A stretch of DNA of 64,000 bases from Chondrosia reniformis. Lineage: Eukaryota; Porifera; Demospongiae; Chondrillida; Chondrillidae. The notes under the pieces are model-generated. The model saw nothing but the letters and a program-made list of their open reading frames with translations. It had not been told where the DNA came from and did not search any database. Shown one piece after another: positions 3,219 to 55,000 of this stretch (positions are counted from its first letter, which is position 1; each line of letters starts with the position of its first letter). The translations under genes were made by a program, and so were the position numbers. The stretch is taken from positions 5,209,673 through 5,273,672 of the forward strand of contig OX359197.1 in assembly GCA_947172415.1 (NCBI GenBank), written 5' to 3'.

Positions 3219-10129
<6,911 letters not shown>

Positions 10130-11437
10130 AGTGATTGTCCAAGGGAATTGTAAAATTAAAGAAATTGTTGCTAATTGTATAATACTATTGATACTCTGCA
10201 CTCAACCATTGCACAAACATAAATTATTTGTATAATATGGTACACACACAATTTTATCATTTAACTAGCACCAATTTAATAAATACTTGAAAGATCCTTT
10301 ATTTGGACTCAATACCGACATGAGTTGCCATAGTGATTTGTCTATTCAAAATGGCGGAAGAACTTCGCAGCCTTTTTGCTAAATGGGACAAAGTAAGGTT
10401 ATATACGATTGCATTCCCACGTATTGATGATTCTGTATATGTAGTATTATATATAGCATCAGATATTTTAATTTCCATATACTTAATAAAACGTGTAGGG
10501 TTCAAAATCTGTCCGAGAATGTATTCTAGCTGATTTCATAGCTCAGTGCGAAGGAATGACGGGGCCTGATTTAGAACAGCAGTTTTTAGATTGTGCAAGT
10601 CTATTTCTAGCGCGGCTGACTGCGTGGATAAGAATAAGGTTGAGTTCTAATGCGACTGCAGTTGGCGCATAAGTATATGTATACACGTATATAAGTACAT
10701 ATGGGCATTTATACTCACACACGTAATATTAAAAAGTGACTGAATCTATATTTTGATTTACGTCACTGTTGAATTCACTTGTGTAGCTATCAATTTGGCG
10801 TTTGTCTAAAATTACAGTTAAAAGCAATCAGAATTTTCATATCGTCCACAAGTGGGTAAGTATTGCTCTACAAGTGACAGGAGGTATTGTATGATTCATG
10901 TTACTATACAAGTACAGCTCATTATCTTGTGGTACATCACATTTCCAATTATCCAAACACATTTCACGATTCACGATTCATGGTGTGTGTGTTCAGCTCA
11001 TTATCTTATGCTACATCACATTCAAACACATTGATTAACTGAACAACTATACATCTTTTATCTTGTATTTCAGTCGCAAATTTCTAAGTGAATTTCTGGA
11101 AGTGGGTGGTATATTGACAGTGCTTGAAATCCTCAGTATCAAGAAGGCATCTGAAGAAGCTAAACTGGAGGCTCTTGGACTTCTAATGGATGTGGCCAAG
11201 TCAGGAAGGCAGTCAAAGGAGCTTGTCTGTGAGAGTGCTGGCATTAGAGCTGTCACAGAGTGTCTGGCTAGGTCCACCAGCCCTCCCACTCAGGAGAGGG
11301 CGCAAGGACTGCTGTTTGAACTGTTTCAGGGCAATCCTCACTATCAGAGTCAAGTCTACAAAGCACTTATTGCACTGATGGCAGCATCTAATACTAACGC
11401 ACAAAGACTTGCTGCATCTACTCTTAGAGATATTCAG

Positions 11438-11610
11438 GTATGGATGGGCTCTTAGTTAGGAGGTATATAGGTGTAGATGGGGTCTTAGTTAGGAGGTATT
11501 CAGGTATGGATGGGGTCTTAGTTAGGAGGTATTCAGGTATGGATGGGGTCTTAGTTAGGAGGTATTTAGGTATGGATGGGGGTCTTAGTTAGGAGGTATT
11601 TAGGTATGGA
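11438..11610 (+). repeat. 33-bp minisatellite at the exon 4 splice donor, ARMH1-A
   Basis: About five units of 33 bp start exactly at the exon 4/intron 4 junction. The unit contains GGTATTCAGGTATGGATGGG, then GTCTTAGTTAGGA. The real exon end reads CTTAGAGATATTCAG|GTATGG, so the repeat reproduces exon end plus donor. In the exon frame the intron gives VWMGS then a stop. Confidence 0.92.
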
Positions 11611-12519
11611 TTTAGGATGGGCTCAGGTTGTATCCTCATTTTGTCACATTATATAGCCTCAAATGGGAGTAGTGAGTGCTTCTATAGTAGACCCAGTGCT
11701 GTCCTTATTGAAGACACTGGACTTGGCAGTGCAGTATGAGGGTTAGTACTTGTATGTGTAGATACAGTACATTAGAAAGGAGATAGAAGAAAGTGTTTGA
11801 TTATTTTGACAGAGATTGTAGAGTATATTGTGTTTTAATAGTGTGTACATACAAAATAGTTTAGAAGAACGTATTTATAATTACTGCATTTGTGATCTGA
11901 TATATAGTCATGTATCAAGTCTGGTCAAGAGGTTTGCTTACAGTCACTTTATATATGTGTACTTATATATACCATTAAATATGGGCTCACCAAAAAGTTG
12001 CCAACACACATATACGTGTATCTATATATGTACATGTGTGTTGTACGTATACATATATCTGTAGCTTGTGAGTTGATCAAAGATCTGGTGGTCTATGAAG
12101 AGGTACAGCACCCACTGATGACAGGTCTGATTAATCTACTGAAGCCAGCAGAGAAGGAAGAGAAGGAAGGTGACTCTAGCAGGCAGACTTCTAGTGGTGA
12201 GGTTGAACAAGCTTCTTCTGCCATGTTATTGAGCAACTCTGTGTTGTCTCTCTTTCTCCATCGTAGTACCTCTACCGATGTACATCCAGCAAGCGAGTGC
12301 AGCCTAGGTCATTGGAATGTTGGCTGTCTCCAATACCATGGTAGCAGAAGAGATGGTTCAGGTAAACCCACACTATGTATATAGCAATGTTATGCACTGT
12401 ACGTATGTACACATGTATATACATTACTTGTCACTTAGATATATATATTTGTTGTGATAGTGTGTTGAATTGTACCTACCTCTTGAAGAACTGTGTCTAT
12501 ATATTAGTTCAATATACTC

Positions 12520-12960
12520 CATTGCCAGGGCAACCACCTGTGCTTAAATTTTGTAACCGTGATATAACAGGATTTAAGAAGTTATATACTGCATTGGCTT
12601 CTTAAATCCTGTCTGCCCAAATATGATAAACTTTTCTACTAAACTACTAAACTAAACGTTTCTTCTTGGAGGTGGACAATTCTCCTTACATTTAGGACAG
12701 TTGAAGTAGTCAGGGCAAGAGCATTCTATGAAGTTGTCAGTGTTTAAGCAAAAACAAACAGACGTAGCAGAGCCATCCTGAAATTCCCGCCAAAATAACA
12801 ATAAAAAGCGACGGAGTATATATCACTCATACCACAACGCTTAATTCGGTGTATATGGATTTTATACACCTCAGCACTGTGGTATAACTAATACATATAC
12901 CCTATATACCAGTTCTATATATACTCCCATGGTTTCCCATCAATAATATGTAGTACTGTC
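12520..12960. other. Copy-specific segment in ARMH1-A intron 7
   Basis: This block is shared with ARMH1-D (43676-44125) and partly with E (56198-56580) but is absent from B. It contains a short hairpin (CAGGATTTAAGAAG and its complement at 12570-12613), then on the minus strand a small cysteine-rich reading frame. The frame is disrupted here: MALLRLFVFA is followed by a stop before the Cys-rich part. See the E copy for the open version. Confidence 0.5.
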
Positions 12961-13846
12961 TAAAGAGTTACGTATATCTATATGGAATATTGTCCTCATC
13001 ACCTGCTCACACTCACATCTCCTACAGTGGCCGTGTGATTGTATGTATATTGTACATGTCTACAGTTAAATGTAATTCCATTGCTGCTCTTTGTGATGGG
13101 AAATGTGAAGCATGTCAGCAGTCAGTATCAAGCAGCCATAGCTCTAAAGGTCAGAACAGCAACAAGTCTTGTTTATTCCTACATTGGTTGTAATTAGGCC
13201 TTGTACATTAATCAAAATATCTTTTCAATAAACATTATGAAGCAATTGAACACTGTATTACATGTTTCCTCAATTTCCCAACTGAATTTAATATAATAGT
13301 GAAGTGAAATTCTTAAGTTGTTCAAGATGGTCATTTTGTTTCACAGATATTCCTGTCTGCTTATGAACCTGTCAAACCTTTAGTTGTCAGTTTTGTGGGA
13401 GATACTATGTACTTGAAATTTAAGGTAATGAATAAGTCATGTGTTATATCTTTCTAACATTGTGACAGTATATATATTTTGTTGTGTGTATTTAGAAAAA
13501 TCCTGAAGAGTTTCATAATATACTGAATCAACCTGAAATGGACTTATTAAAAGGAGCTTTACAAAGTATCAAAGAATTGACCTAACATTTAATTTTTGAC
13601 ATCCAAATGATTTTGAACATGTTTTATGAAAGCTTATTACATCCAACTATGGAAATAATAGGGGAACTTTAAGATCTAAAGCCGATCTTAAAGCATCGAT
13701 CGATATCATCATCTTTAAACTCTAGAATCTTGGTATTACCCCTGCCCACTCATGTCTCCTGAGGAGTGCAATGGGCTAATGGGCGGAACCGAAGTTCGCT
13801 TGATGGGAACCAGAGTCTCCACCTAGCCACTCAAAAAGATGGTCGA

Positions 13847-13891
13847 GCCATAGACAGCTGTTTTGTCCTTATTAGGACTCATCAGTATGGC
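13847..13891 (-). ncRNA. Inactivated antisense hammerhead (G12 to A)
   Basis: The left-arm twin of the ribozyme at 14007-14051 reads on the minus strand. Stem I (GCCATA/TATGGC), CTGATGA, stem II (GTCC/GGAC), stem III (CAGCTG) and the GTC site are all present. The GAAA box reads AAAA, because plus-strand 13864 is T instead of C. G12 is the general base of the hammerhead, so this arm should be inactive. Confidence 0.75.
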
Positions 13892-14006
13892 ATACGATGG
13901 AAGTTTGAGTGGCTAGTCTGCTAATAAGTACTCCCAGAAGCAAAAAAGCTTGTGGTTTCCTTATCAGCAGATAAGGGGTACAGCCACACTCAAACTTCCA
14001 TTGTAT

Positions 14007-14051
14007 GCCATACTGATGAGTCCTAATAAGGACGAAACAGCTGTCTATGGC
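14007..14051 (+). ncRNA. Type I hammerhead ribozyme, complete core
   Basis: Elements in order: stem I 5' GCCATA (14007-14012), CTGATGA (14013-14019), stem II GTCC / loop TAATAA / GGAC (14020-14033), GAAA (14034-14037), a very short palindromic stem III CAGCTG, the cleavage triplet GTC (14043-14045), and stem I 3' TATGGC (14046-14051). Stem I is six perfect pairs and stem II four. All invariant core positions are present, and predicted cleavage is after 14045. The tiny stem III is typical of retroelement hammerheads that act best as dimers. Confidence 0.88.
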
Positions 14052-14193
14052 TCGACCATCTTTTTGAGTGGCTAGGGGGAGACTCCGGTTCCCATCAAGT
14101 GAACTTCGGTTCCGCCTATTAGCTCATTACGCTCCTCAGGGGACATGAGTGGGCAGGGGTACCGGTAATACCCAGAGTTTAATGATGATGATA

Positions 14194-15342
14194 CATCCAA
14201 CTAGTATACATATACGTAGACTAGTTGTTTATGCATGTGAAACGTGTTTCAGGTTAACTGCATTAATTGCCAGTGTCTTAATTAATTATAATTACATTGT
14301 CTTTTCTTAGTCCAACTTAGTGCACTGATCATGATATCACTATAATACAGTTCATTAACTATATATAGGAGAGTTAGTCAACGATGTTGGTTGGTTGTCC
14401 AGACCGGATGTTGCAATGTCCGGTCTGATAACTGACCCATAAAAAGTACTGTAGCTGTCAGTATTTTCTGCATTTATAGTAAACTTATTAGTTAAATAAT
14501 ATACGTACAATCTTCTCTGTGATATATATTATGTATTTTATCGAATTCTGATCTGATATTTACAATAAGATGCCTATAAAGGACAATTAGGTTATTTGAT
14601 CTGCAGCTAGTTTAATTTGCCTTCCTCTACTCTAGGCCTTTCCTTTCCTCCACGTGGACGTGTTTAATTTACTTTAAAAATGGCTTCCACAAATTAAATG
14701 ATGGATAACAAGCAAAGTTACTTACAGCTAAATACATTATGATCGTAAATGTGCATCATCATATCGATTAGATTTGTTATAGAATTTTATTGTTACTGTT
14801 ACCATTGACCACATAATAATTAAAATATTGTGACAGTATAATTATACGTACTTACTTTTTCAATTTCGTGTGTATTTAGAAAAACCTTGAAGAGTTTTAT
14901 AATGTCAATCTGAAGTGGACTTATTAAAAGGAGCTTTACAAAGTATCAAAGAATTGACCTGACATTTATTTTTGACGTACAAAATGTTTTTTATGGAAGT
15001 TTATTACTAATATAGTTGTTTATATTAGACGTGTTTCAGGTTATCTGCATTGCCAGTGTCTTAATTATCTTATCTTAGTAATATAATATAATACAATAAT
15101 TCATGAACTAAAATTGGTCAGCAAGGTTAAGGTTAATTTGTATACAGTACACACTTTTTGGTTTGTGGATGTTGCAATCGGTATAACTCGCAACTACCAC
15201 CAACTTTCCCACTAGAATGACATCACCATGCATCCATTGATCACCACTTTATAAATTACACAAAAGTTTGTTACAATTTGAATTAATTAATTTTTGCATA
15301 TAACATCAGTTAAAGAATTAATTGTTACAATAATTATAAATA
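14194..15342. other. ARMH1-A / kinase-Kelch intergenic region
   Basis: There is no intact gene. About 14388-14437 holds a small hairpin (CAGACCGGA ... TCCGGTCTG), also seen after ARMH1-D and, degraded, after ARMH1-E. The region 14880-14962 is a second, damaged ARMH1 terminal exon (listed separately). The remainder is AT-rich unique sequence. Confidence 0.6.
14880..14962 (+). pseudogene. Duplicated terminal exon of ARMH1, damaged
   Basis: A second copy of the last ARMH1 exon lies about 1.4 kb downstream of the first, with a TATTTAG acceptor and the end LLKGALQSIKELT plus stop. Relative to the other copies it has a 7-bp deletion (TGTCAATC instead of TGTACTGAGTCAATC), so the frame is shifted. 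The D unit has the same arrangement with an intact second exon at 46048-46137. Confidence 0.75.
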
Positions 15343-19327: not shown

Positions 19328-19689
19328 TTGTACATGAGTGCATACAAATACGTACAAATACTTAAGACTATCTAGCTACTGATGGATTATCTTGTAAAGT
19401 AAAATATTTAAAATGATTTTAGCTATCTTAATTGTGTACTGGTACCTTTGTAGATGTGAATGTATTCTCCTTTGATATGTCCCATGTAGATTGCAGCCTT
19501 TATTCATGAGTCTGCACCGAGCTGTGCTGGTCTCTACACGCTGCCAAAGGGCTTCCTCAAAGCAGCCTACAAGTACGTACACAGGAAGTCTTGTCTTCTG
19601 TCTCTTTTGCATGTAGTGTGGATAATCACAGTGATAATCCAACCACAAGTAACTATAATCAGTCTGAAGAGGGAAACATGAAAGAAGCA

Positions 19690-19757
19690 AATGCTGGGAA
19701 TTGAACCCAGGACAGCTGGTTATGACCACCAGTTGCTCTTCCACTGAGCTACAGTTG
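19690..19757 (-). repeat. tRNA-like sequence in ETNPPL-B intron 7
   Basis: Paralog of the element at 7139-7206. The T arm here reads GGGTTCAATTCCC, a one-base change in the B box, and the acceptor stem is again absent. Confidence 0.5.
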
Positions 19758-20666
19758 TCACAGCAATGCCTCTCCCATGCTCTCCCTCATGTTTCCCCTC
19801 TCAGCTAACTACAAGCTAGTAATGTAATTAATAAAGTTTCTTGCTGTATTCTGAGTAATTCATAGGAAGTCCTTGAATAATCTACTAAACCAATTGAAGA
19901 CACTTTAAACAGTGTAAAGAATGTATTAGATAAATTTGAGAAGTTATGGTACATCAATAAATTCCTTCCAGAAATTTGTGTAAAACATATTACAGTTACT
20001 CTAAGAGAATTAACAGACACCTTAATTGATGCAAGTCCAAATTTGACAACAAATAATAAGGCACTTACACCATGTGTGCATGTATATTATCGGGTTAAAG
20101 TGGATGCAGTTAATTGACCAATTTTGACTATCAGTTATGGCTTCTGGACCAAATGCTTTGTGGCCTTTCTGCAGAATATTATATGATCTATAGGATAGTA
20201 CGTATGCATATGTCTACTGACTGCATGACCTGTAAACCCTCCACTTATTATTACCATGTGTTGGCCCACAACACTGACTGAGATGTTAATGCACTGGTCA
20301 TGTGATTCGCTGTCTGTGTTTCCTTATAAGGTATGTGAGAGATGCTGGTGGAGTGTGTATTGCTGCAAGTTGGATTTGGTAGAGCAGGCACCCACTTCTG
20401 GATGTTTGAAATGCAAGGTAAGTGACACTGGGACAGTGACTACTCATAAACAACAAGTTCATATACAAGTACTTATAATGTGGCATGTTATGAATTTATT
20501 GCCTACTTTGGTTGTGAAACTAAAAGACTTAGTCTGCATGTAATGATCTTACTTAGGACTAATTTGTTTGGCAGCATATTCTTCAGTTACTTAACATCAC
20601 CTTGAACACTGACCAATTTAATAGCAAAACGACTTTTATGGATTGTTGTACCTAATAGTGGTTGAA

Positions 20667-21420
20667 TGAGTGGGTAGGTAGGAGAGGTGGGTGGGTGGGT
20701 AGTTAGGAGAGGTGGGTGGGTAGTTAGGAGAGGTGGGTGGGTAGTTAGGAGAGGTGGGTGGGTAGTTAGGAGAGGTGGGTGGGTAGTTAGGAGAGGTGGG
20801 TGGGTAGTTAGGAGAGGTGGGTGGGTAGTTAGGAGAGGTGGGTGGGTGGGTAGTTAGGAGACGTGGGTGGGTAGTTAGGAGAGGTGGGTGGGTAGTTAGG
20901 AGAGGTGGGTGGGTAGTTAGGAGAGGTGGGTGGGTAGTTAGGAGAGGTGGGTGGGTAGTTAGGAGAGGTGGGTGGGTAGTTAGGAGAGGTGGGTGGTAGT
21001 TAGGAGAGGTGGGTGGGTAGTTAGGAGAGGTGGGTGGTAGTTAGGAGAGGTGGGTGGGTAGTTAGGAGAGGTGGGTGGGTAGTTAGGAGAGGTGGGTAGT
21101 TAGGAGAGGTGGGTGGGTAGTTAGGAGAGGTGGGTAGTTAGGAGAGGTGGGTGGGTAGTTAGGAGAGGTGGGTGGTAGTTAGGAGAGGTGGGTGGGTAGT
21201 TAGGAGAGGTGGGTAGTTAGGAGAGGTGGGTGGGTAGTTAGGAGAGGTGGGTGGGTAGTTAGGAGAGGTGGGTGTGTAGTTAGGAGAGGTGGGTGGGTAG
21301 TTAGGAGAGGTGGGTGGGTAGTTAGGAGAGGTGGGTAGTTAGGAGAGGTGGGTGGGTAGTTAGGAGAGGTGGGTGGGTGGGTAGTTAGGAGAGGTGGGTG
21401 GGTAGTTAGGAGAGGTGGGT
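20667..21420. repeat. 21-bp G-rich minisatellite, ETNPPL-B intron 8 (long allele)
   Basis: Roughly 35 units of the same 21-bp repeat as at 8130, with several shortened units (GGTGGGTAGTTAGGAGA, GGTGGTAGTTAGG). It is more than twice as long as the array in copy A. Confidence 0.95.
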
Positions 21421-31008: not shown

Positions 31009-31888
31009 TTCAATAAATGCTTGCTTGAGCCTGTTTTCTGTGATTTCTACTAGTTGCACTCACGTACGTATATGTACTGTACATATGTGCTTGTAGGGCT
31101 TACCATGGTCATCTGACCTCTCTGATGGAGATTAGTAGCTACAAGTGGCAGAATGATCCCGAAAAGTGGCGTGGAAAACACACCATCTTGGTATGAATGA
31201 GACCTGGAGGGGCTGCTAGCTCCATGGGGTACACTTGACTGTGTATCATGTGATCCATTCCTTGTTCAGGCCCCTGCACCAGATAGCTACAGAGGTCTCT
31301 ATAGGGACCCCGAAACTGCCGGACAGCTGTATGCTGATGAAATCAAAAAGCTGATTGATGAAGCTCACAGTAGAGGGAAAAAGGTTTGAGTTGACATGTT
31401 TGTATGTCAACGCTGCTTTTATACACAATTTGTATACGTATATAACAATATGTACATATATGGATGTGTAGATCTATGTGTAGATAGATATAGATATGTA
31501 TTTTATTGTATTGCATTTGTATGTACATAAATGCATACAAATATGTACAAATGCTTATGACTAACTAGCTATGGATTATCTTGTAAAATATGTATATATT
31601 TGATTAATTTAAAATGATTTTTAGCTGTATACATACCTTTGTAGATGTGAATGTATTCTCCTTTGTTATGTCCCATGTAGATTGCAGCCTTTATTCATGA
31701 GTCTGCACCGAGCTGCGCTGGTCTCTACACGCTGCCAAAGGGTTTCCTCAAAGCAGCCTACAAGTACGTACACAGGAAGTCTTGTCCTCTGTCTGTTTGT
31801 ATGTTGTGTGGTACATGGATAATCACAGTAATAATCCAACCACAAGTAACTATAATCAGTCTGAAGAGGGAAAACATGAAAGAAGCAA

Positions 31889-31955
31889 ATGCTGGGAATC
31901 GAACCCAGGACAGCTGGTTATGACCACCAGTTGCTCTGCCACTGAGCTACAGTTG
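31889..31955 (-). repeat. tRNA-like sequence in ETNPPL-C intron 7
   Basis: Third paralog of 7139-7206, with intact A- and B-box-like motifs (TAGCTCAGTGG, GGTTCGATTCC) and no acceptor stem. Confidence 0.5.
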
Positions 31956-32504
31956 TCACAGCAATGCCTCTCCCATGCTCTCCCTCATGTTTCCCCTCTC
32001 AACTAACTACAAGCTAGTAATGTAATTAATAAAGTTTCTTGCTGTATTCTGAGTATTTCATAGGAAGTCCTTGAATAATCTACTAAACCAATTTAAGACA
32101 CTTTAAACAGTGTATAGAATGTATTAGATAAATTTGAGAAGTTATGGTACATCAATAAATTCCTTCCCTAAGTTTGTGCAAAACATATTACAGTTACTCT
32201 AAGATAATTAACAGACACCTTAATTGATGCAAGTCCAAATTTGACAACAAATAATAATGCACTTACACCATGTACCATGTGTACTACAGGGTATGTGTGC
32301 ATGTACATTATCGGGTTAAAGTGGATGCAGTTAATTGACCAATTTTGACTATCAGTTATGGCTTCTGGACCAAATGCTTTGTGGCCATTCTGCAGAATAT
32401 TATATAATCTATAGGATAGTACGTATGTCTACTGACTGCATGACCTGTAAACCCTCCACTTATTATTACCATGTGTTGGCCCACAACACTGACTGAGATG
32501 TTAA

Positions 32505-36420: not shown

Positions 36421-38047
36421 GCTTAGTTATTACCTATTTGACTTTAAAAATTGCTCGTTTATGGTGATTTGCACTATAGAACCTTAGATGTCTAAACAAC
36501 TACAAGAACCTTAGATACCTAAACAACTACATAGAACCTGTGATACCTAAACAACTACATATAGAACCTTAGATATCTAAACAACTTTCCTTATACGTAT
36601 ACATAGAGTATTGCCATTTGGTCCTAGCATTTTAATGACTTATGTCTATGAAATTCCTTAAATTGAAAACTACTTATTAAACAGCTGTCTTTAGGCTCTC
36701 AAAGACATAGACTCCATTAGCAATGTTATTATCTTGCTCGGGTAGTCACTGTGTTGTATGTGTGTTCCGGTCTGCTGCAGATCTGAAGCTAATGATCTTG
36801 CTCTAAGAATAGCAAGAGAGACACTGAAATCATCTGTCTTGAAGGGTGAGCAATGCAGATGAGCTAGACATTCACCAGAACTACACAGTCCACTGCTACT
36901 TGATAACAGTGCTGCACTGCCTGCGTGTTAAAACACTATATATGTGTATGTCCATATATATCTCTATAATATGTGAAAGTTGCCAGTAGAAGTTGCTGAA
37001 ATGGTATCATACCCAAAAAATTGACTTTTCTTAGCAAACGTCTATATGGCCCTTAGAGAATATGTGAACCAAATTTGAGTGATATTTTATTCTTTATGAA
37101 GGAGATATGATTGATTAAAAACATCGTACCATATAGGTTTTTACCGTATCAGAAATATATGACCAGCCGTTTTTCAATAAATGCTTGCTTGAGCTTGTTT
37201 TCTGTGATTTCTACTAGTTGCACTCACGTATATGTACTGTACATATGTGCTTGTAGGGCTTACCATGGTCATCTGACCTCTCTGATGGAGATTAGTAGCT
37301 ACAAGTGGCAGAATGATCCCGAAAAGTGGCGTGGAAAACACACCATCTTGGTATGAATGAGACCTGGAGGGGCTGCTAGCTCCATGGGGTACACTTGACT
37401 GTGTATCATGTGATCCATTCCTTGTCCAGGCCCCTGCACCAGATAGCTACAGAGGTCTCTATAGGGACCCCGAAACTGCTGGACAGCTGTATGCTGACGG
37501 AAGCTCACAGTAAAGGGAAAAAGGTTTGAGTTAATGTATATATTTGTATATCAATGCTGCTTTTATACACAATTTGTATACATACATATATAACATTATA
37601 TACGTATATAGATGTGTAGATCTATGTGTAGATAGATATAGATGTGTATTTTATTGTATTGCATTTGTATGTACATAAATGCATACAAATACATACAAAT
37701 ACTTATGACTAACTAGCTACTGATGAATTATCTTGTAAAGTAAAATATTTGATTACTTAAAATGATTTTAGCTCTCTTAATTGTGTACTGGTACCTTGGT
37801 AGATGTGAGTGTATTCTCCTTTGTTATGTCCCATGTAGATTGCAGCCTTTATTCATGAGTCTGCACCGAGCTGCGCTGGTCTCTACACGCTGCCAAAGGG
37901 TTTCCTCAAAGCAGCCTACAAGTACGTACACAGGAAGTCTTGTCTTCTGTCTGTTTGTATGTAGCGTGGTACATGGATAATCACAGTAATAATCCAACCA
38001 CAAGTAACTATAATCAGTCTGAAGAGGGAAAACATGAAAGAAGCAAA

Positions 38048-38113
38048 TGCTGGGAATCGAACCCAGGACAGCTGGTTATGACCACCAGTGCTCTGCCACT
38101 GAGCTACAGTTGT
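38048..38113 (-). repeat. tRNA-like sequence in ETNPPL-D intron 7
   Basis: Fourth paralog; one base is lost in the CCAGTTGCTCTGCC region (now CCAGTGCTCTGCC). Confidence 0.5.
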
Positions 38114-38662
38114 CACAGCAATGCCTCTCCCATGCTCTCCCTCATGTTTCCCCTCTCAACTAACTACAAGCTAGTAATGTAATTAATAAAGTTTCTTGCT
38201 GCATTCTGAGTAATTCATAGGAAGTCCTTGAATAATCTACTAAACCACTTCAAGACACTTTAAACAGTGTATAGAATGTATTAGATAAATTTGAGAAGTT
38301 ATGGTACATCAATAAATTCCTTCCATAAGTTTGTGCTAAACATATTACAGTTACTCTAAGATAATTAACAGACAGACCTTAATTGATGCAAGTCCAAATT
38401 TGACAACAAATAATAATGCACTTACGCCATGTACCATGTGTACTACAGGGTATGTGTGCATGTACATTATCGGGTTAAAGTGGATGCAGTTAATTGACCA
38501 ATTTTAACTGTTAGTTATGGCTTCTGGACCAAATGCTTTGTGGCCTTCTGCAGAATATTATATAATCTATAGGATATTACGTATGTCTACTGACTGCATG
38601 ACCTGTAAACCCTCCACTTATTATTACCATGTGTTGGCCCACAACACTGACTGAGATGTTAA

Positions 38663-41223: not shown

Positions 41224-44200
41224 ATGGCGGATGAGCTTCGCAGCCTTTTTGCTAAATGGGACAAAGTAAGGCTATATTATCTTATATAGCATCAGATATT
41301 TTAATTTCCATATACTTATAAACGTGTAGGGTTCAAAATCTGTCCGAGAATGTATTCTAGCTGATTTCATAGCTCAGTGCGAAGGATTGACGGGGCCTGA
41401 TTTAGAACAGCAGTTTTTTGATTGTGCAAGTCTATTTCTAGCGCGGCTGACTGCGTGGATAAGAATAAGGTTGAGTCCTAATGCGACTGCAGTTGGCGCA
41501 TATACGTAGTATAATGTATACACGTATATAAGTACTTATATACGTGTATAATGCCCATATGTACTTAAGTATATACATATGGGCATTAATATATACTCAC
41601 ATACGTAATATTAAAAAGTGACTGAATCTATATTGTGATTTACGTCACTGTTGTGTAGCTATCAATTTGGCGTTTGTCTAAAATTACAGTTAAAAGCAAT
41701 CAGAATTTTCATATCGTCCACAAGTGGGTAAGTATTGCTCTACAAGTGACAGGAGGTATTGTATGATTCATGTTATTACAAGTACAGCTCGGTACATCAC
41801 ATTCAAACACATTTATTAACTGAAATACTATACTGCTTTTATCTTGTATTTCAGTCGCAAATTTCTAAGTGAATTTCTGGAAGTGGGTGGTATATTAACA
41901 GTGCTTGAAATCCTCAGTATCAAGAAGGCATCTGAAGAAGCTAAACTGGAGGCTCTTGGACTTCTATTGGATGTGGCCAAGTCAGGAAGGCAGTCAAAGG
42001 AGCTTGTCTGTGAGAGTGCTGGCATTAGAGCTGTCACAGAGTGTCTGGCTAGGTCCACCAGCCCTCCCACTCAGGAGAGGGCGCAAGGACTGCTGTTTGA
42101 ACTGTTTGAGGGCAATCCTCACTATCAGAGTCAAGTCTACAAAGCACTTATTGCACTAATGGCAGCATCTAATACTAACGCACAAAGACTTTCTGCATCT
42201 ACTCTTAGAGATATTCAGGTATGGATGGGCTCTTAGTTAGGAGGTATTTAGGTATGGATGGGGTCTTAGTTAGGAGATATTCAGGTATAGATGGGGTCTT
42301 AGTTAGGAGATATTTAGGTATGGATGGGGTCTTAGTTAGGAGGTATTTAGGTATGGATGGGGTCTTAGTTAGGAGGTATTTAGGTATGGATGGGGTCTTA
42401 GTTAGGAGGTATATAGGTATGGATGGGGTCTTAGTTAGGAGATATTTAGGTATGGATGGGGTCTTAGTTAGGAGGTATATAGGTATGGATGGGCTCTTAG
42501 TTAGGAGATATTCAGGTATGGATGGGCTCTTAGTTAGGAGATATTCAGGTATGGATGGGCTCTTAGTTAGGAGGTATATAGGTATAGATGGGCTCTTAGT
42601 TAGGAGGTATATAGGTATGGATGGGCTCTTAGTTAGGAGATATTCAGGTATGGATGGGCTCTTAGTTAGGAGGTATATAGGTATGGATGGGGTCTTAGTT
42701 AGGAGGTATTTAGGTATAGATGGGGTCTTAGTTAGGAGATATTTAGGTATAGATGGGGTCTTAGTTGGGAGGTATTTAGGTATGGATTTAGGATGGGCTC
42801 AGGTTGTATCCACATTTTGTCACATCATATAGCCTCAAATGGGAGTAGTGAGTGCTTCTATAGTAGACCCAGTGCTGTCCTTATTGAAGACACTGGACTT
42901 GGCAGTGCAGTATGAGGGTTAGTACTTGTATGTGTAGATACAGTACATTAGAAAGGAGATAGAAGAAAGTGTTTGATTATTTTGACAGAGATTATAGAGT
43001 AGATTGTGTTTTAGTAGTGTGTACATACAAAATAGTTTAGAAGTACGTATTTATAATAACTGCATTTGTGATCTGATATATAGTCATGTATCAAGTCTGG
43101 TCAAGAGGTTTGCTTACAGTCACTTTATGTGTACTTATATACCATTAAATATGGGCTCACCAAAAAGTTGCCAACACACATATACATGTATCTATATATG
43201 TACATGTGTGTTGTACGTATACATATATATGTAGCTTGTGAGTTGATCAAAGATCTGGTGGTCTATGAAGAGGTACAGCACCCACTGATGACAGGTCTGA
43301 TTAATCTACTGAAGCCAGCAGAGAAGGAAGAGAAGGAAGGTGACTCTAGCAGGCAGACTTCTAGTGGTGAGGTTGAACAAGCTTCTTCTGACCATGTTAT
43401 TGAGCAACTCTGTGTTGTTTCTCTTCCTCCATCGTAGTACCTCTACCGATGTACATCCAGCAAGCAAGTGCAGCCAAGGTCATTGGAATGTTGGCTGTCT
43501 CCAATGCCATGGTAGCAGAAGAGATGGTTCAGGTAAACCCACACTATGTATATAGCAATGTTATGCACTGTACGTATGTACACATGTATATACATTACTT
43601 GTCACTTAGATATTTTTGTTGTGATAGTGTGTTGAATTGTACCTACCTCTTGAAGAACTGTGTCTATATATTAGTTCAATATACTCCATTACCAGGGCAA
43701 CCACCTGTGCTTAAATTTTGTAACCGTGATATAACAGGATTTAAGAAGTTATATACTGCATTGGCTTCTTAAATCCTGTCTGCCCAAATATGATAAACTT
43801 TTCTACTAAACTACTAAACTAAACGTTTCTTCTTGGAGGGTGGACAATTCTCCTTACATTTATGACAGTTGAAGTAGTCAGGGCAAGAGCATTCTATGAA
43901 GTTGTCAGTGTCTAAGCAAAAACAAACAGACGTAGCAGAGCCATCCTGAAATTCCCGCCAAAATAACAATAAAAAGCGACGGAGTATATATCACTCATAC
44001 CACGACGCTTAATTCGGTGTATATGGATTTTATACACCTCAGCACTGTGGTATAACCAATACATATACCCTATATACCAGTTCTATATATACTCCCATGG
44101 CTTCCCATCAATAATATGTAGTACTGCCTAAAGAGTTATATCTATAAGGAATTGTAAGGAATGTATTTGTCCTCATCACCTGCTCACACTCACATCTCCT

Positions 44201-44762
44201 ACAGTGGCCGTGTGATTGTATGTATATTGTACATGTCTACAGTTAAATGTAATTCCATTGCTGCTCTTTGTGATGGGAAATGTGAAGCATGTCAGCAGTC
44301 AGTATCAAGCAGCCATAGCTCTAAAGGTCAGAACAGCAACAAGTCTGGTTTATTCCTACATTGGTTGTAATTAGGCCTTGTACATTAATCAAAATATCTT
44401 TTCAATAAACATTATGAAGCAATTGAACACTGTATTACATGTTTCCTCAATTTCCCAACTGAATTTAATATAATAGTGAAGTGAAATTCTTAAGTTGTTC
44501 AAGATGGTCATTTTGTTTCACAGATATTCCTGTCTGCTTATGAACCTGTCAAACCTTTAGTTGTCAGTTTTGTGGGAGATACAATGTACTTGAAATTTAA
44601 GGTAATGAATAAGTCATATTTTATATCTTTCTAACATTGTGACAGTGTATATATTTTGTTGTGTGTATTCAGAAAAATCCTGAAGAGTTTCATAATATAC
44701 TGAATCAACCTGAAATGGACTTATTAAAAGGAGCTTTACAAAGTATCAAAGAATTGACCTGA
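41224..44762 (+). CDS. ARMH1-like: ARMH1-like armadillo-helical protein, complete (copy D)
   Basis: The only copy with no visible lesion. Exons: 41224-41265, 41330-41469, 41659-41727, 41855-42218, 42833-42917, 43235-43366, 43438-43532, 44243-44326, 44524-44601, 44673-44762. They total 1179 nt (392 aa) and all phases agree. The family is recognised by the N-terminal WDK / LEQQFLDCASLFLARLTAW block, the FLEVGGILTVLEILSI repeat, SAGIRAVTECLARS, IVDPVLSLLKTLDLAVQYE, CELIKDLVVYE and LPMYIQQASAAKVIGMLA. The arrangement follows vertebrate ARMH1, which is slightly longer (about 440 aa). Intron 6 is 71 bp, with donor AGTG|GTGAGG and a pyrimidine-rich acceptor. No catalytic residues; helical repeats suggest protein binding. 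It starts 252 bp after the ETNPPL-D stop. Confidence 0.9.
42219..42788 (+). repeat. 33-bp minisatellite at splice donor, ARMH1-D
   Basis: About 17 units starting at the exon 4 donor. It lies in an intact gene, so the spliceosome must choose among many donor-like ATTCAG|GTATGG or TATAG|GTATGG sites. Confidence 0.93.
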
Positions 44763-45023
44763 CATTTAATTTTTGACATCCAAATGATTTTGAACATGTT
44801 TTATGAAAGCTTATTACATCCAACTATGGAAATAATAGGGGAACTTTAAGATCTAAAGCCAATCTTAAAGCATCGATCGATATCATCATCTTTAAACTCT
44901 AGAATCTTGGTATTACCCCTGCCCACTCATGTCCCCTAAGGAGTGCAATGAGCTAATGGGCGGAACCGAAGTTCGCTTGATGGGAACCAGAGTCTCCCCC
45001 TAGCCACTCAAAAAGATGGTCGA

Positions 45024-45068
45024 GCCATAGACAGCTGTTTTGTCCTTATTAGGACTCATCAGTATGGC
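45024..45068 (-). ncRNA. Inactivated antisense hammerhead (second element)
   Basis: Equivalent of 13847-13891 with the same G12-to-A change (TTTT on the plus strand). Confidence 0.72.
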
Positions 45069-45183
45069 ATACGATGGAAGTTTGAGTGGCTAGTCTGCTA
45101 ATAAGTACTCCCAGAAGCAAAAAAGCTTGTGGTTTCCTTATCAGCAGATAAGGGGTACAGCCACACTCAAACTTCCATTGTAT

Positions 45184-45228
45184 GCCATACTGATGAGTCC
45201 TAATAAGGACGAAACAGCTGTCTATGGC
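45184..45228 (+). ncRNA. Type I hammerhead ribozyme (second element)
   Basis: Identical core to 14007-14051: GCCATA, CTGATGA, GTCC/GGAC, GAAA, CAGCTG, GTC, TATGGC. Predicted cleavage after 45222. Confidence 0.87.
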
Positions 45229-46047
45229 TCGACCATCTTTTTGAGTGGCTAGGGGGAGACTCCGGTTCCCATCAAGTGAACTTCGGTTTCGCCCATTAGC
45301 TCATTGCGCTCCTCAGGGGACATGAGTGGGCAGGGGTACTGGTAATACCCCGAGTTTAATGATGATGATACATCCAACTAGTATACATATACGTAGACTA
45401 GTTGTTTATGCATGTGAAACGTGTTTCAGGTTAACTGCATTAATTGCCAGTGTCTTAATTAATTATAATTACATTGTCTCTTCTTAGTCCAACTTTGTGC
45501 ACTGATCATGATATCACTATAATACAGTTCATTAACTATATATAGGAGAGTTAGTCAACGATGTTGGTTGGTTGTCCAGACCGGATGTTGCAATGTCCGG
45601 TCTGATAACTGACCCATAAAAAGTACTGTAGCAGTATTTTCTGCATTTATAGTAAACTTATTAGTTAATTAATATACGTACAATCTTCTCTGTGATATAT
45701 ATTATGTATTTTATCGAATTCTGATCTGATATTTACAATAAGATGCCTATAAAGGACAATTAGGTTATTTGATCTGCAGCTAGTTTAATTTGCCTTCCTC
45801 TACTCTAGGCCTTTCCTTTCCTCCACGTGCACGTGTTTACTTTAAAAATGGCTTCCACAAATTAAATGATGGATAACAAGCAAAGTTACTTACAGCTAAA
45901 TACATTATGATCGTAAATGTGCATCATCATATCGATTATATTTGTTATAGAGTTTTATTGTTACTGTTACCATTGACCACATAATAATTAAAATATTGTG
46001 ACAGTATAATTATACGTACTTACTTTTTCAATTTCGTGTGTATTTAG

Positions 46048-46137
46048 AAAAATCCTGAAGAGTTTCATAATGTACTGAGTCAATCTGAAGTGGACTTATT
46101 AAAAGGAGCTTTACAAAGTATCAAAGAATTGACCTGA
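46048..46137 (+). CDS. Alternative/duplicated ARMH1 terminal exon (D unit)
   Basis: An intact 90-nt copy of the last ARMH1 exon (KNPEEFHNVLSQSEVDLLKG to stop) with acceptor TGTATTTAG, about 1.4 kb downstream of the exon used in the model. Phase is compatible with exon 9, so it could serve as an alternative last exon. It resembles the terminal exon of copy B (VLSQS) more than its own neighbour (ILNQP). Confidence 0.55.
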   Translation, partial: KNPEEFHNVLSQSEVDLLKGALQSIKELT

Positions 46138-46367
46138 CATTTATTTTTGACATACAAAATGTTTTTTATGGAAGTTTATTACTAATATAGTTGTTTATAT
46201 TAGATTGTTTCAGGTTATCTGCATTGCCAGTGTCTTAATTATCTTATCTTAGTAATATAATACAATTAATAATTCATGAACTAAAATTGGTCAGCAAGGT
46301 TATATATATAATTAATGTACAGTACACACTTTTTGGTTTGTGGATGTTGCAATCGGTATAACTCTTA

Positions 46368-46739: not shown

Positions 46740-48423
46740 GGAGGTTTGTCTCTCTTTAGCCTCACTTTAGACAAGATTGGTACCTTCAATGTTGACAAGT
46801 GTACAATCAAATACATTGATATATATACACATGTACATACACTATACTGCTAGTGCTGATATTCGACGGAAATGATAATAAAAAAATAATGGAGAGAATA
46901 TATTACTAAGTGAAACGTCCTTTAGTAAATATGTACACATTAGCACATACTAACTTCTAATTTCAGTATTTGAGATATAAATTAGACATAACATATTTAA
47001 AATTATGATGTAATGAAGAAGATACTTGACTTAGGGAATTTAATTTAAGTACATAATGTGTCAAGCTGTAGGTACATTCAATAAATCTCAGTTGACATGC
47101 CGAATAATGATTAATAGTATTGAACTAATCTGGATGATTAATGTATGTCAGTCTTTCATAATCAATTCAGTTTTGCAAAAGGATTTCCCCAAAGTACCCA
47201 AGTAGGAGCTAGTCTGGTGTCCAGACCCATCCGCCATTTTTAATTGGCTAGAGGTAGAAGGGTCTGGTAATATATCCTATCACTCTCGTGTCAGGGACAG
47301 TTAATCCATGATAATAAAACACACAGCACAGTGGATATGATGGTGGCATTAGAGGAGAGAGATTGGACTAGTGAGGATGCTACCATTCCCAAGAAGAGAA
47401 GGAGCTGTACACTAACCACTAACTATGTGATAACAGAAGTACCTTGGAAGCTTATCAACTAGGTACAAGGGAATTATCTTAGTCAGTTAGACAGCTGTTT
47501 CACCCTCATTTGAGCTCATCAGTGTGGTACACTTTAATGATGGTGCGTTTGGATGGCTGCCTTTATGTACATATTAATTAAATAAAACACATAATAAGTC
47601 TGAGACTGAGTGCTCACAATAAACTAAGTTAATTACACTGAGCCATGCGAAGGCTATGATGATAAGCAAATAATATATAGTAAGAATAGAACTTGTGACT
47701 TCAGCCAAGCTCAGACTGTAGTCACTTGACTGGTTTGGTATAATATACTACAGATTTGTTCAGCACTAATAATCAATAATACACTATAATAAGAATAGTA
47801 CATACGTATGTACAGTTAACATGCTCACTGTGTTCTCTGCAACATTCTGACAGAGTATCTTATGCATCACACTGACTATAGCAGTTTCACCATTCACATG
47901 ATTATCATCTACAGAGTGTTAAAACTATCACGACTGTACACTAACTCTCAGTAAAAGGAGATCACTGACTACTATGAAACAGTAAAGGCAGTCAGTACGT
48001 GTATATAGCTGGGAAGGTCAGAGGAGAATACATTAGCTGAATAAATACAAGCTTAAAATGATCTTGTAAATCAATATCGTTTCACTTGATCTTAAAATAT
48101 CAATTTCTTAAAGTAGGATAGCTGATAGCATTTATAAGAGAGCGCTTTCCTGTTAATGATCTGCGATCGATTTGTATATCACAAAACTTACAGCTTTTTT
48201 AAGTACCTCTGATCTCTTCAACCTTCATCACTGGACCTAGTATAAGAGACAATTAGGACGCTTTATTGATCTGCAGTTTAATTTTCCTTCCTCCAGTCCT
48301 TTTCTTTCCCCCACGTGTCTACTTTATAAATGGCTACCACAATTTAAAAATTAATCACAAAACATGCAAGTTGAAATTATTGATGATTCTACAGCAACAC
48401 ATGCAAACATATAGTAAAAAGAA
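46740..48423. other. Gene-free region
   Basis: AT-rich, with no convincing exon on either strand. It contains an imperfect hairpin near 47214-47262 (TCTGGTGTCCAGACC ... GGGTCTGG) and a degenerate hammerhead at 47484-47530. The stretch 48240-48330 resembles the sequence left of the Kelch exons in units A and E. Confidence 0.5.
47484..47530 (-). ncRNA. Degenerate hammerhead-like motif
   Basis: On the minus strand: CTGATGA, then GCTC AAATGA GGGT (stem II with two wobble pairs), GAAA, CAGCTG, GTC. The conserved boxes are intact, but the flanks (CCACA and TAACTG) cannot pair as stem I, so it is probably a relic. Confidence 0.55.
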
Positions 48424-52055: not shown

Positions 52056-55000
52056 ATGGAGTATATATTAGTGTATTTCACTGCATATGTACATTATTAT
52101 TATAATATCTGTGAGAGTACTGGCATTAGAGCTGTCACAGAGTGTCTGGCTAGGTCCACCAGCCCTCCCACTCAGGAGAGGGTGCAAGGACTGCTGTTTG
52201 AACTGTTTCAGGGCAATCCTCACTATCAGAGTCAAGTCTACAAAGCACTTATTGCACTGATGGCAGCATCTAATACTAACGCACAAAGACTTGCTACATC
52301 TACTCTTAGAGATATTCAGGTATGGATGGGCTCTTAGTTAGGAGGTATATAGGTATGGATGGGGTCTTAGTTAGGAGGTATATAGGTATAGATGGGGTCT
52401 TAGTTAGGAGGTATTTAGGTATGGATGGGCTCTTAGTTAGGAGGTATATAGGTATGGATGGGCTCTTAGTTAGGAGGTATATAGGTATAGATGGGGTCTT
52501 AGTTAGGGGGTATATAGGTATAGATGGGGTCTTAGTTAGGAGGTATATAGGTATGGATGGGCTCTTAGTTAGGAGATATTAAGGTATGGATGGGGTCTTA
52601 GTTAGGAGGTATTTAGGTATGGATGGGGTCTTAGTTAGGAGGTATATAGGTATGGATGGGGTCTTAGTTAGGAGGTATATAGGTATGGATGGGGTCTTAG
52701 TTAGGAGGTATATAGGTATGGATGGGGTCTTAGTTAGGAGGTATATAGGTATAGATGGGGTCTTAGTTAGGAGGTATTTAGGTATGGATGGGGTCTTAGT
52801 TAGGAGGTATTTAGGTATGGATGGGGTCTTAGTTAGGAGGTATATAGGTATGGATGGGGTCTTAGTTAGGAGGTATATAGGTATGGATGGGGTCTTAGTT
52901 AGGAGGTATATAGGTATAGATGGGGTCTTAGTTAGGAGATATTTAGGTATGGATGGGGTCTTAGTTAGGAGATATTCAGGTATGGATGGGGTCTTAGTTA
53001 GGAGATATTCAGGTATGGATGGGGTCTTAGTTAGGGGGTATATAGGTATAGATGGGGTCTTAGTTAGGAGATATTCAGGTATGGATGGGGTCTTAGTTAG
53101 GAGATATTCAGGTATGGATGGGGTCTTAGTTAGGAGATATTCAGGTATGGATGGGGTCTTAGTTAGGAGGTATATAGGTATGGATGGGGTCTTAGTTAGG
53201 AGGTATTTAGGTATGGATGGGGTCTTAGTTAGGAGGTATATAGGTATGGATGGGGTCTTAGTTAGGAGATATTCAGGTATGGATGGGCTCTTAGTTAGGA
53301 GGTAAATAGGTATGGATGAAAAATCTAAGATACCATTTTCCTACATGCTATATGCCTATTCTGTAAAAAGAGCCTATAGGGGAACTAAACCTAAAGAGAG
53401 CTTTAGATGAAGATACAGTAGTCTTTTCTTCCTTCTTTTCCCGTCTTTCATCTTCTTCTCCACTGGGTCAGACAGCCGTTTCTGGGAATTCCACCCTTCA
53501 TCAGTGATCCTGGGAGTCTTTGTCTTTTTCTTTATCTTGATCTTCTGTGAATCCTTGGCTCACTATGCTAAATCTAGGGGCCTTATATACACTATTTTGG
53601 CGCCAAAAGTTAAATAAGGTGTTAACTAAGACACATGATGAAATTTAATTTTATGAAAGGAATGTAGGTCCAATTAACTTTTATGAATTAATTATAAATC
53701 TATTAGTAATCTTGCTTGTACAGGTAAAACAGACTCAGCATAACTATAGACACAAGTAGGACATATTACGTAAGTCTACCCTTAGGTCTTCTAGTAGTAA
53801 CATTTCTTTGGAGGTGGGGTAACACAATATGGGGTAACACAAGACAGTCCTTAAGCATACTAGCTACTTTTTGCTTATACTTGATTCTAACTAGAGGCTG
53901 CCGGGATAGGAAGGTTTTAAAGGTTGACTTTAGCTTAAAGTATTTGTAACCCTGCTTAATAAGCCTACTGCATAACTGCAAACTTTTAGCCTGAAAACTG
54001 GAGAAGTCACTACATATTCTAGAATACCTAATTAGTTGTGAAATAAAGACACCATAGGCTGGGGTATTAGGAATATTACTATCTAAATGGGGGAAATTTA
54101 CTATATTAAAGTTAAAGTCCTCTCGCTTATCATATACTTTAGTGATAAATTGATTGTTAGTAATGGTTATATCTAAGTCTAAAAAGGGGGATTTTTTAGG
54201 GCTGGTATTTGTCTTTTTAAGAATAAGTTCTTTGGGGTAAATATCACTGGATGGGCTCTTAGTTAGGAGGTATATAGGTATAGATGGGGTCTTAGTTAGG
54301 AGGTATATAGGTATGGATGGGGTCTTAGTTAGGAGGTATATAGGTATGGATGGGGTCTTAGTTAGGAGGTATATAGGTATAGATGGGGTCTTAGTTAGGA
54401 GATATTTAGGTATGGATGGGGTCTTAGTTAGGAGATATTCAGGTATGGATGGGGTCTTAGTTAGGAGATATTCAGGTATGGATGGGGTCTTAGTTAGGGG
54501 GTATATAGGTATAGATGGGGTCTTAGTTAGGAGATATTCAGGTATGGATGGGGTCTTAGTTAGGGGGTATATAGGTATAGATGGGGTCTTAGTTAGGAGA
54601 TATTTAGGTATGGATGGGGTCTTAGTTAGGAGATATTCAGGTATGGATGGGGTCTTAGTTAGGAGATATTCAGGTATGGATGGGGTCTTAGTTAGGAGAT
54701 ATTCAGGTATGAATGGGGTCTTAGTTAGGGGGTATATAGGTATAGATGGGGTCTTAGTTAGGAGATATTCAGGTATGGATGGGGTCTTAGTTAGGGGGTA
54801 TATAGGTATAGATGGGGTCTTAGTTAGGAGATATTTAGGTATGGATGGGGTCTTAGTTAGGAGATATTCAGGTATGGATGGGGTCTTAGTTAGGAGATAT
54901 TCAGGTATGGATGGGGTCTTAGTTAGGAGGTATATAGGTATGGATGGGGTCTTAGTTAGGAGGTATTTAGGTATGGATGGGGTCTTAGTTAGGAGGTATA

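Follow-up and report, generated by a model that had tools for sequence, protein, structure and literature searches.

A hammerhead palindrome in the sponge Chondrosia reniformis is probably a retrozyme insertion with a Penelope-like signature

Why does a sponge genome carry a type I hammerhead ribozyme inside a long palindrome, with an altered copy of the same ribozyme on the opposite strand? The question was raised by a window of 64,000 nucleotides of Chondrosia reniformis (contig OX359197.1), the whole stretch of DNA analysed here, in which a preliminary description had seen a strand-specific self-cleaving foldback element of an undescribed family. Our analyses led to the verdict that the palindrome is the outcome of an insertion and not a heritable foldback design. 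It probably arose in a single insertion event of a metazoan non-LTR retrozyme, here a hammerhead retroelement of 350 nt without coding capacity, and the machinery of a Penelope-like element (PLE) most likely carried it out.

The inverted-repeat search of the window placed the near-palindrome in two arms, 13737-13911 and 13987-14161, which are 94% complementary over 175 nt and separated by a 75-nt spacer, with outer inverted arms at 13704-13723 and 14174-14193. The giant inverted repeat described earlier as a 490-bp element is real, but the inserted DNA spans 13650-14191, as given by unit mapping and by a target-site duplication, TACATCCAACTA, present as a perfect 12-nt direct repeat at 13638-13649 on the left and 14192-14203 on the right. 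The full insertion (locus L001) consists of two head-to-head pieces of a 350-nt retrozyme unit, whose positions are prefixed here with u. Arm 1 (13650-13986, minus strand) lies antisense on the plus strand and runs from u94 round to about u73, with its sense 3' end at the site named b below, the tailed end; arm 2 (13987-14191, plus strand) is sense and runs from u170 round to about u18, with its sense 3' end at site a, the tail-less end, so that the left end of the focal copy is of class b and its right end of class a. The tail holds a hairpin, CTTTAAGATC/GATCTTAAAG, at 13667-13693 on the minus strand, read from the sequence between sites a and b and corresponding to the unit hairpin u26-53. 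The Rfam search recovered the proposed type I hammerhead at 14007-14051 on the plus strand, complete, with an intact core and a predicted cleavage after 14045 (RF00163, 37.1 bits, above the gathering score of 34, with E 1.1e-5 in the search of the window). The mirror copy at 13847-13891 on the minus strand differs from it across 45 nt solely by G12>A, the single substitution that had been reported, and the altered base, read at plus-strand position 13864, falls within a CpG of the intact copy. The suggestion that a long hairpin would bury the ribozyme agrees with the minimum-energy fold of 13650-14191, itself a prediction, in which 0 ribozyme bases are paired internally and 45 (plus strand) or 44 (minus strand) are paired outside. 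About 200 bases outside the insertion, at 14400-14427, two abutting 14-nt inverted-repeat arms (86%) were also seen.

The same insertion is found again in the window at 44827-45368 (98% identity over the 490-bp query; coordinates by a 31177-base offset), with hammerheads at 45184-45228 on the plus and 45024-45068 on the minus strand. Since both copies lie in segmental duplicates (11424-15189 and 42600-46364, 96.8% identity), with an identical duplication sequence and the same G12A, they represent one insertion event, and two separate insertions were rejected. The unit search of the window also found a diverged relative of part of the unit at 9467-9654, made of a minus piece (9467-9575) followed by a plus piece, 9603-9654 (77%). 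In addition, a 40-nt remnant resembling the hammerhead part of the unit (82.5%) lies at 47488-47527 on the minus strand.

A search of the C. reniformis genome for further copies, as the preliminary description had proposed, returned at least 126 DNA matches and at least 65 hammerhead matches; the fetched loci cover 59 of the 65 hammerhead matches and part of the DNA matches. From 75 loci, six overlapping ones were removed, the unit was mapped on the remaining 69, and seven sharing flanks were then removed to leave 62 independent loci, over which the unit is dispersed; an undescribed strand-specific self-cleaving foldback family is not supported by this distribution. L007 and L010, which are among the 62, resemble the unit in the hammerhead alone, and a few others (L009, L011, L081, L085) are relatives of about 80-86%. 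The length of 350 nt was defined from tandem loci (for example L021 and L028), in which units abut without coding sequence between them. The unit has a G+C content of 45.7%, no frame over 66 codons, and a presumably active hammerhead at u190-234 with a predicted cut after u228. Its folded RNA is strongly paired (z -5.47; 0 of 100 shuffles equally stable), and stem III, as read from the sequence, is short and palindromic (ACAGCUGU); in animal type I hammerheads a weak stem III is the usual case, and many of them need dimers (PMC7761336). The exact 33-nt core gave 0 matches in IMG/VR. L007 and L010 carry a second hammerhead family (1501-1545 in each; 41.6 and 40.3 bits), which has only the ribozyme in common with the unit; their right flanks are 91% identical over 88 nt.

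Among 87 complete hammerheads, duplicates included, the core was intact in 74. The most frequent change was G12>A (8); C>T at the preceding base, which belongs to the same CpG, ranked joint second (5/87), as expected from CpG decay. C>T and G>A were as frequent or more frequent at five further CpG sites of the unit; the G12A pattern therefore looks like CpG decay as far as these sequence counts go, and a designed switch was rejected. Nine two-armed insertions have a full hammerhead on both arms: in five both cores are intact, and in four G12 is changed on one arm, twice on the b-ended and twice on the a-ended arm. There is no fixed inactive twin, and the inactivated antisense copy, put forward as part of the layout, is a feature of individual insertions in which the changed side varies. 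Because loci found by hammerhead search are biased to intact cores, no inference on selection is drawn from these counts.

On the evidence of the mapped loci, insertions of this repeated unit are flanked by duplications, obey an orientation rule and use two 3'-end sites, mostly one each. Two arms are present at 37 of the 62 loci, and all 37 are head-to-head with sense 3' ends outward (opposite orientation 0); the other 25 were counted by script as one-armed, although on visual inspection some of them (L017, L082) have a short second arm. On the sense 3' side, arms terminate at site a (...GATGATGACA, about u18-21) or site b (...CCCCTATTTTTTTCC, about u65-78), with the hairpin u26-53 between them; these site classes, like the 15 non-CpG sites and the head-clustering windows used below, were chosen post hoc with the data already seen. 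Of the 37 two-armed insertions, 22 have one a and one b end, two have b+b, one has a+a, and 12 have one end in neither class, five of these inside the tail. One end of each kind was thus found in 22 of the 25 whose two ends could both be classed; under equal chance, P is 8e-5. When counted by eye with duplicates still included, 27 of 41 were a+b and 3 had the same class at both ends; the scripted count is preferred. Duplications scoring at least 10 flank 25/62 loci (19/37 of the two-armed), compared with 17/359 shifted-boundary controls, and 37/62 loci have none at that score. In length, these 25 mostly fall at 10-14 bp; one measures 16 bp and two measure 21 bp. Arm lengths and junctions differ between loci, the 37 junctions ranging from 43 nt inserted to 26 nt overlapping, a spread from which no case for junction microhomology is made.

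The two arms of an insertion share minor source variants more often than permutation allows, at 44 of 94 comparisons over 36 informative sites (permuted mean 0.117, maximum 0.264; 1000 permutations) and at 37 of 46 over the 15 hand-picked non-CpG sites (permuted mean 0.175, maximum 0.46; 2000 permutations); tandem copies within one insertion share 17/20. By this sequence measure, both arms derive from the same RNA lineage, and gene conversion could account for part of their similarity. Segments of at least 80 nt crossed the ribozyme cut site in 71/85 cases, 0/105 segments started at u225-233, and 28/105 were longer than 360 nt, which indicates that the template was continuous over the cut site; it would have been a circle or an uncut multimeric RNA. 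We infer that it was a ligated circle rather than an uncut multimer, and that both arms came from one molecule. The heads of the arms show a modest cross-stop preference: b-primed arms end near a in 15/37 cases and near b in 6/37, and a-primed arms end near b in 9/48 and near a in 8/48. In three insertions (L032, L091, L101) the two arms jointly span the circle about once. Together with the clustered heads, this may point to a pair of reactions on a single circle; the clustering could also come from pausing at RNA structure.

By sequence comparison, a GIY-YIG PLE of the sponge follows the same insertion plan. Loci L047 and L062 contain PLE frames with both RVT_1 and GIY-YIG, and the 3' end of the L062-type PLE has at least 45 matches (the best 40 of 1492 candidates scored, favouring complete 3' ends). 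Fifteen neighbouring matches within 4 kb comprise 12 minus-plus, two plus-minus and one minus-minus pair, the last three all in one cluster (C6:3932-3937 kb) where minisatellite separates the copies. Six minus-plus pairs, chosen as short, were studied. All six are head-to-head, with one end stopping at ...CCCAAAGAT, the other running on for 32-37 nt through the palindrome AAGTTCGACGCAGTTATAAGGAATCCTTATT, and a perfect flanking duplication of 12-15 bp. Minisatellite flanks are common to the retrozyme (11/62 loci) and the PLE (4/6 pairs) and were met at 0/2000 random places, the control being drawn from this window only. The tail regions of retrozyme and PLE have no sequence similarity (1421/2000 shuffles score as high), and mimicry of the PLE tail sequence by the retrozyme was rejected on that ground. 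An Rfam-detectable hammerhead beside PLE frames was likewise rejected, since 14 PLE or GIY-YIG loci yielded none up to E = 1. The L062-type PLE contains a stretch, CAGTCACTGAGGAAGACCCCCAGGGTCGAAACGTTTGACC, which fits a hand-made pattern and may be a minimal hammerhead.

In the metazoan non-LTR retrozymes of coral, mussel and axolotl, a type I hammerhead sits within a non-coding repeat of about 150-450 bp; copies occur in tandem, the G+C content is under 50%, duplications exceed 4 bp, and the RNA is self-paired with a weak stem III (PMC7229834). The Chondrosia unit agrees with them in each of these respects. Helix I-II tertiary contacts and a circular RNA transcript are further marks of that group. 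In contrast to those retrozymes, it occurs in a sponge, mostly as one or two units per locus and not in long arrays, and has a head-to-head, two-site insertion plan; the word 'inverted' is absent from the main text of PMC7229834. Plant LTR retrozymes are also non-autonomous hammerhead retroelements, but their hammerheads are of type III and lie in LTRs, and the elements have 4-bp duplications as well as a primer-binding site and a polypurine tract (PMC7761336). With PLEs and their terminal repeats (pLTRs), the family shares head-to-head inverted repeats, an optional tail at one end, short duplications and AT-rich targets (PMC11167929, PMC3846280). It differs from them in a unit without a coding region, no similarity to the PLE examined, a canonical hammerhead above the Rfam cut-off, and a tail of about 48 nt versus 30-40 nt. 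The telomerase-like reverse transcriptase frame, canonically with a GIY-YIG endonuclease, that would mark a PLE itself is absent from the mapped insertions. We therefore regard the palindrome family, as judged by sequence, as a metazoan non-LTR retrozyme in a sponge whose insertions bear the Penelope signature. The novelty claimed for the element was to fall if it proved a known retrozyme or a Penelope-type repeat in inverted duplication, and in substance that is what was found.

In this reading, the two target strands would be cut about 12 bp apart, and each cut end would prime reverse transcription of the retrozyme RNA, with site a used by one end and site b by its partner. The two antisense cDNAs would then be joined at variable heads, producing head-to-head arms with sense 3' ends at both duplications, and the buried ribozyme and the focal G12A would be by-products of inverted insertion and CpG decay, respectively. 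The PLE enzymes would have acted in trans on the retrozyme RNA. PLEs were already a strong candidate for the mover of animal retrozymes, on the grounds that PLEs and retrozymes are found together, are each arranged in tandem and each bear type I hammerheads (PMC7229834). The published Penelope plan is an arrangement of inverted pLTRs with a tail on one of them and a short duplication (PMC3846280); the PLE tail is the stretch between two reverse transcription start sites, and the purified Anolis PLE protein cuts and extends both strands (PMC11167929). For Schistosoma W-elements, the part of PMC8490949 available contains no statement on mobilisation by PLEs.

A LINE could instead have moved the same retrozyme by L1-style twin priming, with the second target strand serving as an internal primer on that RNA. 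Twin priming also yields head-to-head arms and duplications of the observed size, but its second start would be expected at varied internal places, whereas here the ends fall at two defined sites, one each in 22/25 insertions as in the six PLE pairs of the same genome. The presence of two arms at 37/62 loci also speaks against it. The LINE route gains from the lack of common sequence between retrozyme and PLE tails and from the naming of both LINEs and PLEs as possible movers (PMC7229834); we consider it unlikely. Slightly less probable again is an origin of the unit as the pLTR of an autonomous PLE, of which loss or recombination has left solo inverted repeats. The plan does match that of PLE pLTRs (PMC3846280), and these carry hammerheads (PMC7761336). 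Against this, tblastn of one PLE protein to the 69 loci gave a single match (L076:105-335), outside the insertion at 467-871; similarity to the unit was absent (best E 1.1) from 30/38 GIY-YIG hits with 1.5 kb flanks and from L066 and L067; tandem units abut with no coding sequence between them; and the 14 PLE or GIY-YIG loci lacked Rfam hammerheads at E up to 1.

The foldback element first envisaged, strand-specific and self-cleaving, or else a foldback or MITE-type DNA transposon, in either case copied as a palindrome, would account for the long inverted arms and for a focal ribozyme intact on one strand only. Such elements have constant inverted ends and a fixed duplication length, whereas here the two ends differ, arm lengths, heads, junctions and duplication lengths vary by locus, units occur in tandem, 25/62 loci are one-armed and both ribozymes are intact in 5/9 comparable insertions; constant junctions and ends were seen only among copies sharing flanks. 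We regard this origin as highly improbable. Snap-back of one cDNA on itself was also rejected, because it predicts equal ends and 22/25 differ.

Within the preferred reading, insertion of a retrozyme by a PLE, a more specific version can be put forward tentatively: each insertion may consist of two simultaneous reverse transcriptions on one retrozyme RNA circle, one per target strand and with separate start sites, where each reaction would tend to halt at the point at which the other began. For the Anolis PLE, the start site is the same on both strands, the hammerhead is dispensable for insertion in vitro, and unprocessed RNA is the dominant substrate in vitro (PMC11167929); these results disfavour a strict one-site-per-strand or circle-only model. 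If the specific version is true, Penelope elements would owe both their one-tail rule and their head-to-head palindromes to an enzyme with paired starts, and PLEs would be the movers of animal retrozymes. The retrozyme insertions themselves bear the PLE signature beside a PLE that shows it, within one sponge genome, and the rule of one tail per insertion constrains how PLEs may insert, in that priming takes place on both strands, mostly at two distinct sites, and uses RNA of one lineage. In the literature searched, with most subscription journals outside its scope, no description of a sponge retrozyme with head-to-head, two-site insertion was found.

Several other repeats were recorded in the genome and in the window. 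A family of at least 42 matches (the best 40 of 2229 candidates scored), represented at L052:2787-3036 (minus strand) and also at L036 and L053, holds a stretch that is hammerhead-like by a hand-made pattern and not by Rfam, and contains AGTTCCCCTAT, as does site b; one match pair on C1 is in plus-minus order. The window itself is composed of large duplicated blocks and short tandem-repeat arrays with spacings of about 21 and 33 bases (for example 8131-8434, 20667-21420, 11424-11611, 42205-42787, 52306-53318 and 54248-55308). Within repeated blocks lie four near-identical tRNA-like genes, at 7132-7207, 19684-19759, 31882-31957 and 38040-38114 (minus strand), which score 41.9-45.3 bits with the Rfam tRNA model and were labelled tRNA-SeC (anticodon tca) by ARAGORN, a label we consider doubtful.
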